Positions 16,652-20,481 of a stretch of DNA of 47,259 nucleotides are shown one piece after another. The notes beneath the pieces were generated by a model that was not told the DNA's origin, ran no database searches, and worked only from the letters and a program-made list of their open reading frames with translations. The stretch comes from Chromatiaceae bacterium (GTDB lineage Bacteria > Pseudomonadota > Gammaproteobacteria > Chromatiales > Chromatiaceae): assembly GCA_007693535.1 (NCBI GenBank), contig REDK01000140.1, positions 1 through 47,259 of the forward strand. Direction: 5' to 3'. Within the stretch, counting starts at the first letter, position 1. Each line of letters starts with the position of its first letter. The position numbers and the translations under genes are program-made.

Positions 16652-18880
16652 TCAGCCGGCGGTAGCGGCCGCTGCGGATTCGGCCTCCGAGTTTGGCTCT
16701 GATGCCGATTCCGATGTCGGCTCTGGGTTGGCCTCCTCCGGGACCTGGCAGGCATCGAAGAACCGATAGTGATCGATCGCTTCCAGGATGCCGGCGGCGA
16801 ATGGGCGCTCGGCGAAATAGATACTGCGGGTATCGGTAAGCTGGGAGAGTTCTTCGTTGTGGCGGTTGGCGACCACCACCGCCAGGGTGTTGCCGCGCAT
16901 CATGTCCTCGTCGGCGCCAGAACCGCCGGCCGCCAGGCAGTGCTCCAGCGGGATGCCGAACTGGTCGGCCACGTAGCGCAGGGCCAGGCCCTTGGAGGCA
17001 CGCACCGGCACCACGTCCAGGAATTGTCCGAAGGACATGTTCAGATGCACGCTGAGCCCGGCCTGATGCAGGCGACTGCCGATCTCTTCCAGGCTCGGGG
17101 CACGGCTGGGATCGATGAAATAGCTGACCTTGAAGCGGCTCTGCTCGGTCTTGGGCTGGCGCTCTAGGCCAGGCAGGTCGGCCAGGGTCTCGCGCGCCCG
17201 TAGCGGCGACCAGAGGTGGTCGATATGACGCGCCCAGGCGGCATCGGCAGTGAGTTGCGGGGCATAGTAGATTTCGGTGCCCAGCGCGGTGATCAGCACG
17301 TCCGGGCGCGGGATGCCGTAGCGGCGCATCACCGCCAGGGCCGATTCCAGACGCCGGCCGGTGGCGATGCCGAAGCTGGTGCACTTGCGGTTCTCGCGCA
17401 TGATGCGAATGAAATCGGCCAGGGAGTCGGGATCACCGAGCAGGTTTTGGTCCAGGTCGGTGAAGATGGCGCGGTCGTGATAGAGCATCGGCTTGCGTAC
17501 CAGTGGCGCCTGCGGCGGCCCCGGGACCTTCTCCAGCAGCGGTTCTACCGCGGCCATGTAGCGCTCGGCATGGGCCGGCCAGGAGTAGTGCGCCTTGACC
17601 CCGGCCAGGCCGTTGCGCGAGAGGCTGCGCCACTTGCTGGCATCGCTGATGACCCGCAGCAGGGCCTTGGTGATGTCCTGCTTGTCGAGCGGGTCGATCA
17701 AAAAACCGTTCTTGCAATGGCCGATGATGTCGATTGGCCCGCCGTCCTCGGTGGCGACGATCGGCAGGCCGCTGGCGGCAGCCTCGATCAGGGTCAGCCC
17801 GAAGGGCTCGGTGAGGGCCGGATTGACGAACACCCCGCGCGCGGCGGCGGCGAGCTGATAGATCACCGGCACCTCGTCGGCGCGATGATGCTTGGGATAG
17901 GCGACGCGCCCGTATAAATCATAGGTATCGATGGCCAGTAGCACGTCGGTCAGCACCTGCTGGGCGCCGCTGTCGAGTTCGCGAATGTCATCGCGGTTGC
18001 CGGCGACGATGATCAGGTTGGCCGCCTGTTGCAGCTCCTCGGACTCGCCGTAGGCCTCCACCAGGGTGACGATGTTCTTGCGCTCGTCCGGCCGCGACAG
18101 GGCGAGGATCATCGGCCGCTTGGGCTCGCGCAGAAAGCGAGTCAGTTCGGCCCGGATGGGGGCCCGTTGCTCGCTGCCATCCGGTGGATGGAACCGGCCG
18201 AGATCGGTGCCGGGCGGGATCACCGACATCCGTTCGGGCTGATAGTGATCGTAGAGGCCGTACTGCTCCTCGATCTCCTGGGTCGTGCTGGTGACCACCA
18301 GGCTGGCGGCGCCGAGGGTCTCCTCCTCGGCATTGATGCGCCGGTCCATTTGGTAGCGGGCGTCGATGTCCTCTTGCTTCAGGCCCGAGGCGAGCAGCCG
18401 GCGCCGCTTGACCCGCCCCAGGGAATGTCCGGTGTGGGCCAGTGGCACGCCGAGCTGGGCCGCGAGCCGCGCACCCACATAGCCGGCATCGGCATAATGG
18501 CTGTGGACCAGGCTGGGTGCCGTGTCGTGGGTGCGCAGGAACGCGAGCAGGTTGTCTGCAAAGGTGTCCAGGTGATCCCAGAGCTGTTCTTTGGGCAAAT
18601 ATTCCGCCGGCCCGCACTCGACCCGCACGATGCGCGCCCCGCCGCCGAGATCCTCCACCGGTTGGGCATAGTCCGGGCTGATCCGCGGGTCTTTGACCAG
18701 GCGGGTGAAGAGGTCCACCTGGTCCACATCCGCGCGGGCGGCCAGGGCGCGGGCCAGTTCCACCACATAGAGGGTCTGACCCCCGGTGTCGGCGTCGCGG
18801 CCGAGTTCCAGGTCATGGCCGCGGATCAGTCCGTGCACGCTGATCAGCACGATATAACGAGGGGGACGCTCGGCCGTCAT
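16652..18880 (-). CDS. Sucrose-phosphate synthase with fused HAD phosphatase-like domain
   Basis: A 742-residue GT4 enzyme that makes sucrose 6-phosphate from UDP-glucose and fructose 6-phosphate. The N-terminal half (about 1-455) has LISVHGLIRGHDLELGRDADTGGQ written here in two parts: LISVHGLIRGHDLELG and RDADTGGQTLYVVELA. It also has HSHYADAGYVG, HTGHSLGRVKR and the nucleotide-sugar motif EPFGLTLIEAAASGLP. The C-terminal HAD domain (about 470-710) has TDLDQNLLGD near 476 and a Lys in ASKGLALRYV, but motif IV reads GGSGADEDMM instead of GDSGND. An acidic Ser/Glu/Ala tail ends the protein. Sucrose is a common osmolyte in salt-exposed proteobacteria. No separate phosphatase or sucrose synthase gene is adjacent. 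Confidence 0.9.
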   Translation of the reverse strand: MTAERPPRYIVLISVHGLIRGHDLELGRDADTGGQTLYVVELARALAARADVDQVDLFTRLVKDPRISPDYAQPVEDLGGGARIVRVECGPAEYLPKEQLWDHLDTFADNLLAFLRTHDTAPSLVHSHYADAGYVGARLAAQLGVPLAHTGHSLGRVKRRRLLASGLKQEDIDARYQMDRRINAEEETLGAASLVVTSTTQEIEEQYGLYDHYQPERMSVIPPGTDLGRFHPPDGSEQRAPIRAELTRFLREPKRPMILALSRPDERKNIVTLVEAYGESEELQQAANLIIVAGNRDDIRELDSGAQQVLTDVLLAIDTYDLYGRVAYPKHHRADEVPVIYQLAAAARGVFVNPALTEPFGLTLIEAAASGLPIVATEDGGPIDIIGHCKNGFLIDPLDKQDITKALLRVISDASKWRSLSRNGLAGVKAHYSWPAHAERYMAAVEPLLEKVPGPPQAPLVRKPMLYHDRAIFTDLDQNLLGDPDSLADFIRIMRENRKCTSFGIATGRRLESALAVMRRYGIPRPDVLITALGTEIYYAPQLTADAAWARHIDHLWSPLRARETLADLPGLERQPKTEQSRFKVSYFIDPSRAPSLEEIGSRLHQAGLSVHLNMSFGQFLDVVPVRASKGLALRYVADQFGIPLEHCLAAGGSGADEDMMRGNTLAVVVANRHNEELSQLTDTRSIYFAERPFAAGILEAIDHYRFFDACQVPEEANPEPTSESASEPNSEAESAAAATAG

Positions 18881-19002: not shown

Positions 19003-19689
19003 TTACCAGGGCATGAAGGAGTCCATGACCCGAAACGGCACCCCCATGGCGCGGGTGTCGCTGGACATGCTGCCAACGCCCTGGCGCAGCAGCAGGGTGT
19101 CGTACTGCATGCGGCCCATGGTGGCATTCATCGTGCCCATGTCGCGGCTCATGCTGCCGATGTCCCCGCCCATGGCGCCGATGGTGCCGTCCATCTGGAT
19201 GATGGCCACGCGCATCGCGCCGATGTCGCTACGCATCTGGGTCATCTGCTCGTGCATCGACTGCATGTCCCGCGCCATCGCGTGCATGAAGCTCGGCCCG
19301 GCCACCTTGCGTTCATGGCGCCGTGCCGGGCGCTCGTCGCTGGGGGCATGGCCCATGTTGAACATGTAGTCCTCCATGCGGTTCATGTCGCGGGCCATCT
19401 CGAAGACCATGTAGAACAGCACCGCGCCGATCAGGACCGCGAACACCGCCAGCACTCCGGTGTACCAGCGGGCGCGCTTGTTGGTCTGCTGCTCGGCCGC
19501 CAGGCGCCGCTGCATGCTGCGGCTGACGCTGGCGGTGTGGCGGGCGACGCGCTGCTGCATCAGCTTGTTGCGCGTGTCGAGCTGGTCGCTGATCGCAACC
19601 ATGGATTGGTTACGCAGGGCGACATCCTCGCGCAGCACCTGGAGCAGTTCCTCGACAGTCTGCATCGGGTCGGGGCGTTTCTCGGCCAT
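19003..19689 (-). CDS. Single-pass membrane protein with methionine-heptad coiled coil
   Basis: A 228-residue protein of unknown function. Residues 1-74 are helical and charged (TVEELLQVLREDVALRN) and probably cytosolic. A membrane helix spans about 75-97 (WYTGVLAVFAVLIGAVLFYM). Residues 98-228 are probably periplasmic. From 138 to 222 every seventh residue is Met (12 of 13; Leu at 201), while the matching second core position is Met or Ile from 135 to 191. This is a long left-handed coiled coil with a methionine core. Start at 19689 (MAEKRPDPMQ), with GGA about 12 bp upstream. It lies back to back with the mraZ promoter. Possible roles include a structural spacer or a soft-metal (Cu) binder; neither is shown. 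Confidence 0.8.
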   Translation of the reverse strand: MAEKRPDPMQTVEELLQVLREDVALRNQSMVAISDQLDTRNKLMQQRVARHTASVSRSMQRRLAAEQQTNKRARWYTGVLAVFAVLIGAVLFYMVFEMARDMNRMEDYMFNMGHAPSDERPARRHERKVAGPSFMHAMARDMQSMHEQMTQMRSDIGAMRVAIIQMDGTIGAMGGDIGSMSRDMGTMNATMGRMQYDTLLLRQGVGSMSSDTRAMGVPFRVMDSFMPW

Positions 19690-19943
19690 GGGGGCTAAGG
19701 TCCAAGCAAGCTGGGAGCAGAGTCCTATTATGCGCCGATTGCGCGCCGGTGGCCGGTCAGGTCCAGCCGGTTGCTGGATCGGGCTGCCGCGGCCACGCGG
19801 GCGACCTGGGCATGACATCGACAGGATGTTAAGAAAACGTGACAGAAAAATGAAACCGCTGGGTTTTTCGGTGGAACCTTTCGTCTCGCCTTCCGATCGT
19901 CGGGTAAGTCACTGGCGCTGACAAAAATTCAGAGCTTGCTGTC

Positions 19944-20028: not shown

Positions 20029-20481
20029 GTGTTTACCGGGACGCAGGTACTCAGCCTTGACGACAAAGGCCGGCTCGCCATTCCCGCGCGTCAGCGCGAA
20101 CGGCTGGCCAAGGTCTGTGACTCCCGTCTTGTGATCACTGCCGACCCGCAGCGCTGTCTGCTGGTCTATCCCGAGCCCACCTTCGACGAACTCGCACGCA
20201 AACTGAACGCCCTGCCGGCGTTCGCCAAAGAGACGCGCGCGCTGCAACGGTTGTTGATCGGCTATGCCAATGAGGTCGAGATGGACGGCCAGGGTCGGGT
20301 ATTGCTGACGCCGGCCCAGCGCGACTACGCGCGCCTGGACAAGCGGGTGGTGCTGGTGGGCCAATACAACCGCTTCGAACTCTGGGACGAGGCGGCCTGG
20401 CAGCAGACCCTGGCAGAGTCGGAGGCCGTCAGTCTGGAAGCCCTGTCCGGGCATCCGGATACTGCCTTGATCCGGCTTTGA
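20029..20481 (+). CDS. mraZ: MraZ transcriptional regulator
   Basis: A 150-residue AbrB-like double-barrel regulator, E. coli length 152. The two SpoVT/AbrB halves are visible: VLSLDDKGRLAIPARQRERL near the N-terminus and EVEMDGQGRVLLTPAQRDY in the middle, each with the DxxGR signature. The start is a GTG at 20029 giving (M)FTGTQVLSLD, preceded by GGGGGA; the in-frame ATG-like extension to 19981 would translate the operator itself and is rejected. It is the first gene of the cell wall and division cluster and probably represses its own promoter. Confidence 0.95.
   Translation: MFTGTQVLSLDDKGRLAIPARQRERLAKVCDSRLVITADPQRCLLVYPEPTFDELARKLNALPAFAKETRALQRLLIGYANEVEMDGQGRVLLTPAQRDYARLDKRVVLVGQYNRFELWDEAAWQQTLAESEAVSLEALSGHPDTALIRL

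Follow-up and report, generated by a model that had tools for sequence, protein, structure and literature searches.

The gene at positions 19003 to 19689 of the window, by which we mean the whole stretch of 47,259 nucleotides of DNA from a purple sulfur bacterium (Chromatiaceae) that was analyzed, codes for a putative membrane-anchored coiled coil whose core is built largely of methionine. Its product may serve as an inner-membrane tether for periplasmic sulfur globules, a reading to which, judging from sequence comparison, we assign a probability of about 0.45. The reading draws together a transmembrane-anchored methionine rod with a hydrophobic tail, hosts which bear dsrA, and sulfur-globule protein (SGP) genes that adjoin some family members. 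For the window protein itself, a globule role would follow from family membership, the function being carried over from a related branch linked to a ParA-like ATPase. According to the part of PMC3368242 that was consulted, the sulfur globules of the Chromatiaceae are periplasmic and have the envelope proteins SgpA-C, and oxidation of the stored sulfur requires Dsr proteins.

Gene and protein architecture

The gene and the segments of its predicted product are as follows.

19003..19689, minus strand: gene of the methionine-core coiled-coil membrane protein, 228 amino acids plus stop (stop codon 19003-19005); orthologues exist
19459..19689, minus strand: residues 1-77, predicted cytoplasmic helix whose hydrophobic residues are of the Leu type; conservation is poor, with 26% identity to the window protein across residues 2-72
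19402..19458, minus strand: residues 78-96, predicted single transmembrane helix, with a K/R-rich flank on its N-terminal side
19354..19398, minus strand: residues 98-112, juxtamembrane methionine heptads (M98, 102, 105, 109, 112), with Met in 50/50 orthologue cells
19045..19290, minus strand: residues 134-215, methionine-core heptad region, with AlphaFold helices 134-166 and 177-215 of low to moderate confidence
19006..19044, minus strand: residues 216-228, tail GVPFRVMDSFMPW, which matches the family pattern P-[MF]-x-x-M-[ND]-x-F-x-P-W

A longer reading frame is also open, from an upstream ATG at 19818; the start at 19689 is preferred since the orthologue alignment begins there and M1 is invariant in alignment A2, which comprises eleven close proteins (that of the window genome and ten others). 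The N-terminal part of the window protein contains 14 K+R and 9 D+E residues and is predicted to be helical. A K/R-rich flank precedes the transmembrane helix in each row of A2, giving a positive-inside pattern of N-in/C-out in 11/11 rows, and on this ground the window protein is predicted to be single-pass, N-in/C-out. The membrane protein with a periplasmic methionine coiled coil, as pictured in an earlier note on this DNA, is thus upheld as a prediction. The hydrophobic tail PFRVMDSFMPW ends the protein.

The AlphaFold monomer model built with 36 family sequences consists of helices at residues 8-112, 134-166, 177-215 and 219-225 and of nothing beyond helices in terms of fold, with a mean pLDDT of 75.6, a pTM of 0.34 and low means (48-77) for the coil blocks; an earlier run with 11 sequences gave a mean pLDDT of 65.8 and a pTM of 0.22. 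Searches of PHROGs, Pfam and NCBIfam returned no curated family for the window protein, only weak coil-like matches. The SGP family (PF17228) is absent from its five Pfam matches up to E 10, and the same library recognizes SGP elsewhere. A phage or plasmid origin was considered and set aside, the protein having no match in the phage and plasmid collections.

A conserved methionine core

The heptad register 138, 145, ..., 222 (position 'd') carries methionine at 12 of its 13 positions, the exception being Leu201, in whose column all ten other rows of A2 have Met. The partner positions ('a') from 135 to 191 read M M M I I I I M M, followed by T, V, T, F and M. Both counts given in the earlier note, Met in 12 of 13 heptads between 138 and 222 and Met or Ile at the partner position for nine heptads, are thereby confirmed. 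Together, the two core phases contain all of the methionines of residues 131-228 (18/18). The best single phase holds 12 methionines; when these same residues were shuffled 200,000 times, the corresponding count averaged 4.6, peaked at 10 and reached 12 in 0/200,000. The DNA repeats in the gene are few and short (a 21-bp repeat in 2.4 copies at 19134-19183 and one 9-bp repeat, covering about two heptads), and the methionine pattern is thus not the product of one fresh tandem expansion.

Methionine occupies 115/124 non-gap cells at 'd' in A2 and 60/134 cells at 'a', where 26 Ile, 15 Val, 16 Thr and 12 Phe are also found. In the 'd' columns in which the window protein has Met, it is kept in 105 of 114 cells; retention elsewhere amounts to 351/650 for non-core tail positions, 44/133 for N-terminal Leu/Ile/Val and 3/35 for N-terminal Met. 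Since the alignment of repeats can pull Met onto Met, an alignment-free count was also made, in which the best two core phases of each of the 11 orthologues hold 207/216 of the methionines of the last 110 residues. The 25 more distant family rows have Met in 217/291 cells at 'd' and in 133/331 at 'a'. Methionine is confined to the a/d phases and conserved there and, as read from these alignments, conservation of the core is strong at 'd', looser at 'a' and looser still in distant branches. The earlier note had reasoned that homologues with free replacement by Leu or Val would leave a generic hydrophobic core; such replacement is not seen at 'd', where the register is conserved, but is partly seen at 'a'. 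The length of the coil varies among orthologues in steps of 7 and 14 residues, and the C-terminal part of the A2 proteins contains 16-22% Met.

Orthologues and the wider family

Of 55 related genomes searched, 29 had matches at E 0.01, and across 210 genomes of the order a profile yielded 137 matches at E 1e-6, mostly paralogues. The close proteins of A2 are 42-59% identical to the window protein, with one at 28%, and eight named close relatives come from Thiohalocapsa (five), Marichromatium (two) and Thiodictyon (one). Marichromatium gracile DSM 203 and M. bheemlicum DSM 18632 are among the bacteria in which the orthologue is present. The window-type gene is patchily distributed, since a strong orthologue occurs in only 1/8 genomes of the window's own genus. 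In the class sample, at least 34 of 369 genomes match the A2 profile at E 1e-8, a search that scored up to seven candidates per genome and is likely to include misses.

The broader alignment A4 consists of 36 rows picked by hand from 142 Met-heptad open reading frames (ORFs), duplicates and antisense frames included. The tail pattern recurs in 30 of the 36 rows, and a looser version of it is passed by 86/142 of the ORFs. Matches to A4 were found in 53/244 genomes of the phylum sample, most of them in another class and with E values down to 4e-48; this figure is an overcount, because several of the weaker matches fall within open frames some 500-1500 aa long that resemble chemoreceptors, and at least seven genomes (G373, G715, G747, G683, G695, G707, G730) have chemoreceptor-like matches only.

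Of the 90 flanked or short loci that were scanned, 26 contain family genes in tandem pairs, L100, L101, L117-L123, L125, L126, L128 and L152 among them, and the genes that flank these pairs are conserved only within a genus. The presence of different tail types in tandem genes suggests hetero-oligomers. In L080, L081, L097, L099 and L129, tandem Met-coil genes are divergent from or near a STAS-type gene (anti-sigma-antagonist-like, named by eye).

Genomic neighborhood

The gene is flanked in the window by two others.

16652..18880, minus strand: sucrose-phosphate synthase/phosphatase, downstream neighbor, 122 bp away; neighborhood not conserved
20029..20481, plus strand: mraZ, divergent neighbor; neighborhood not conserved

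The downstream gene encodes a compatible-solute enzyme, with the synthase and phosphatase domains in one piece. An operon with it was considered, the two genes being on the same strand, yet the arrangement is not conserved and the candidate was rejected. On the other side, 339 bp separate the Met start (19689) from the GTG of mraZ (20029), and the divergent orientation is real in the window genome. The regulatory region common with mraZ, which the earlier note had proposed, stands in this orientation but not in its conservation: none of the 20 flanked loci searched contains mraZ, rsmH or the sucrose-phosphate synthase; in six mraZ-bearing congeners, the 1.5 kb or so around mraZ include neither the Met-coil gene nor the synthase, one further congener giving no mraZ match; and divergence from mraZ was found in no other locus examined. 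A promoter scan yielded one sigma-70-like site, on the mraZ strand, and none for the Met-coil gene. The gene could have encoded a divisome or septal protein co-regulated with mraZ, as the divergent orientation in the window genome had hinted; with a neighborhood that is not conserved, the septal link is unsupported, was rejected, and must be rated extremely improbable.

The neighbors of the window-type orthologues differ from locus to locus, comprising a lytic transglycosylase and an ABC permease (Pfam), metG, a hisS/bamB operon and others, several of which were named by eye. Their composition also bears on a further explanation, in which the protein would bind Cu(I)/Ag(I) or relay metal together with RND efflux pumps. 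Clusters of methionine can bind Cu(I), and some paralogues adjoin an AcrB-family RND pump and a membrane-fusion protein (Pfam HlyD_D23, named after CusB or HlyD). However, the methionines stand at coiled-coil core spacing and not in surface Met motifs, the coil of the window protein is not rich in His or Cys, and the 11 rows of A2 are without any Cys. In addition, no copper gene was recognized beside the orthologues in the loci read by eye, and an RND gene lies near window-type orthologues only in three loci of the Marichromatium group, 2.5-6.9 kb off. A copper relay thus appears quite improbable. The RND pump was likewise dropped as a general partner, since it is near some paralogues only.

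In two Marichromatium-group loci (L062:9557-10030 and L065:9686-10156), a gene for a small exported protein with one CxxCH motif is overlapped or nearly touched by the orthologue. A cytochrome partner was tried and rejected, as the CxxCH neighbor is found in 2/3 loci of this group, a scan of the third showed no ORF with a haem motif, and both proteins tested are without a Pfam match.

A ParA-linked branch and sulfur-globule genes

The window genome codes for a second family member, on contig C33, which lies 310 bp from a ParA/MinD-like ATPase and has an RND pump and a membrane-fusion protein nearby. Between the RND and ParA genes of this locus (L077:5544-14695) there is a secreted-looking ORF of 238 aa, and comparable loci, in eight or more related genomes, contain a DUF4412-like gene in addition. 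Of 83 rows with a Met-coil ORF, 19 have a ParA-like ATPase no more than 1 kb away. They come from two classes, ten of these rows belonging to the window's taxonomic family, one to another family of its class and eight to the other class. The ATPase of this branch is matched by NCBIfam ParA_partition, below the cut-off.

The ParA-type branch was aligned as A5 (18 rows, L023 and L029 included); of the 16 other rows, which were scanned for ParA, 14 have it near and two (L153, L168) do not; no ParA match was found in L168 or in L153/L154. The profile of the window group matches that of A5 at E 2.9e-17 over 126 columns, tail included, and a control comparison with an unrelated membrane-fusion-protein family gave E 0.76. 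The window protein itself is about 20% identical to the ParA-linked branch, whose N-terminal parts are near neutral to acidic and not clearly basic.

Pfam SGP (PF17228) genes that score above the cut-off were found near family members in G243 (4.3 kb, 56.7 bits), G293 (3.5 kb, 33.2 bits), G289 (2.0 kb, 28.0 bits) and G579 (1.3 kb, 64.9 bits). Outside the window's taxonomic family, 14 of the 30 class genomes with matches were flanked, and among these, four have an SGP-like gene by composition and three reach the Pfam cut-off. Among the loci read, ParA, Pfam SGP and Met-coil genes stand together in two: L158, from G243 of the same class, and L186, from G579 of another class. The order in L158:45-11012 is RND pump, secreted proteins, Pfam SGP, ParA-like ATPase, Met-coil and then a dynamin-like GTPase; that in L186:3434-10139 is RND, secreted proteins, two SGP-like genes (one with 64.9 bits, the other with 20.1 bits, below the cut-off), ParA and Met-coil. 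The dynamin-like GTPase follows the Met-coil gene by 50 bp or less in L116, L153, L158 and L164, and was confirmed by Pfam Dynamin_N in L158 and L164. ParA is present in L164, and an SGP-like ORF occurs there by composition only, without a Pfam match, as in L068, L097 and L188.

Neither the window locus nor any of the ten loci of window-type orthologues has a ParA gene within the stretches scanned, and an SGP-like ORF is likewise lacking at the window locus. Among the window-type orthologues, only L068 has one, 5.8 kb away and unrecognized by Pfam. The two SGP loci of the window genome (19.5 kb each) contain no Met-coil or ParA gene.

Association with sulfur oxidation

Among the class genomes, to which this comparison was confined, dsrA (TIGR02064, E 1e-50) is present in 30/34 with the Met-coil family and in 88/335 without it (Fisher 1.2e-12, uncorrected for phylogeny, with genomes treated as independent although they are not). 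When the window's own taxonomic family is excluded, four sampled genomes being taken as that family, the figures are 26/30 and 88/335, and 19 of the 20 taxonomic families with a match to the Met-coil family have dsrA. The association is incomplete in both directions, G359, G446 (55% complete), G491 and G506 having the Met-coil family without a dsrA match and 88 genomes having dsrA without a family match. A soxB match is above the cut-off in 27/34 family genomes, with two more at E below 1e-135, and in 148/369 overall. The window genome carries MsrP, dsrA, two SGP genes and the ParA-linked paralogue. A direct link to the dsr cluster was considered and rejected, since three class matches lie 6-20 kb from dsrA and the intervening genes looked unrelated; the dsrA region of the window genome (about 20 kb) has no Met-coil ORF.

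These data may also be explained by a periplasmic coiled coil of purely structural role, unrelated to sulfur globules, whose methionine would be cheap in sulfur-rich cells or would provide a soft, adaptable core, the dsrA association reflecting shared ancestry. The heterogeneous neighbors of the window-type orthologues fit such a coil, as do an AlphaFold model of helices with no further fold and PDB matches to generic long coiled coils (tail needles, Lpp). Yet the N-terminal helix of the same proteins uses Leu and not Met, for which reason cheap methionine alone is insufficient; moreover, distant rows have the specific tail in common, and a related branch resides within clusters of sulfur-globule and ParA genes. 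We regard the purely structural coil as possible but unlikely.

Alternatively, the methionines would act as a sacrificial sink for oxidants in the manner of MrpX/BcrX and be repaired by methionine sulfoxide reductase. The methionine content of the C-terminal part, its predicted periplasmic location and the presence of MsrP in the window genome are in line with it. Nevertheless, MsrP, the one reductase in this test, is not enriched, being found in 19/34 genomes with the family and 142/335 without it (p = 0.15), and 15 of the 34 family genomes have no MsrP match at E 1e-40. No msr gene was recognized beside the orthologue loci when these were read by eye, and methionines confined to the core phases would be shielded. 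The oxidation-sensitive role put forward in the earlier note is hence unsupported by the distribution of MsrP, and an oxidant sink is improbable.

Proposed function and significance

In the tether that we favor, the protein would be anchored in the inner membrane and comprise a short cytoplasmic helix, one transmembrane segment and, on the periplasmic side, a helical rod some eleven heptads long, its core being Met at 'd' and Met or Ile at 'a'. The heptads imply that the rod may oligomerize. Reaching into the periplasm, it could link the inner membrane to sulfur globules, whereby the flexible thioether core and the hydrophobic tail would touch the surface of the globule or the proteins of its envelope. 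With the same architecture, the ParA-linked branch could couple a cytoplasmic ParA ATPase across the membrane to periplasmic cargo, and this branch is possibly a transmembrane adaptor for globule positioning. The window protein would then be a solitary family member with a longer cytoplasmic part.

A bolder and rather unlikely extension is that the family forms the transmembrane link of an undescribed positioning system, in which ParA would act through the Met coil on globules across the inner membrane, together with envelope proteins, the RND exporter and, in some lineages, the dynamin-like GTPase. Methionine may in that case have been favored by selection, a flexible core and tail lined with thioethers being suited to contact with polysulfane sulfur, and the window protein would be a ParA-independent globule anchor. 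The near-neutral to acidic N-terminal parts of the ParA-linked branch are of no help to the positioning reading. In the open-licence literature, nothing was found that joins sulfur globules with ParA, and nothing on methionine zipper coiled coils or Met-rich periplasmic heptad coils, which does not show their absence from print.

A coiled-coil core made of methionine by selection, and not by drift, represents a design rule rarely met in structural biology. If the link to globules is true, it raises the questions of how periplasmic sulfur stores are positioned and apportioned by bacteria and whether a ParA ATPase can act on cargo across a membrane.

Comparison with known systems

The Met-coil family has in common with SgpA-D and Pfam PF17228 a periplasmic setting, predicted for the Met coil, in dsrA-bearing sulfur oxidizers, and in four genomes an SGP gene is located 1.3-4.3 kb from a family member; in contrast, the window protein has no PF17228 match. 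SgpD of Allochromatium, as described in the part of PMC10386293 that was consulted, has a cleaved signal peptide and regularly spaced Pro, whereas the window protein is a predicted transmembrane-anchored Met coil; an mCherry fusion has been reported for SgpD in PMC10386293.

As with the partners of ParA/MinD ATPases (McdB, ParB), a branch of the family is encoded immediately after a ParA-like ATPase, with an N-terminal part predicted to be cytoplasmic. Such partners are reported to use a positively charged, disordered N-terminus (PMC10241942, in the sections available); the N-terminal part of the ParA-linked branch, by comparison, is not clearly basic. The Met-coil protein would also differ in spanning the membrane towards a periplasmic cargo, and no ParA gene adjoins the window gene.

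MrpX and BcrX are similarly Met-rich and thought to be periplasmic. They are encoded with MsrPQ, according to the portion of PMC8315932 at hand, a linkage that was not seen for the Met-coil family, nor is MsrP enriched in its genomes. Lpp and trimeric coiled-coil fibers share the heptad rod with the window protein, and weak profile matches connect it with Lpp, the tail needle gp26 and others; the Lpp-type PDB matches are at the level of the coil only, and a single-sequence search gave no PDB match better than E 0.012. The window protein is distinguished from these rods by a core of Met in place of Leu/Ile/Val and by its predicted anchor in the inner membrane.
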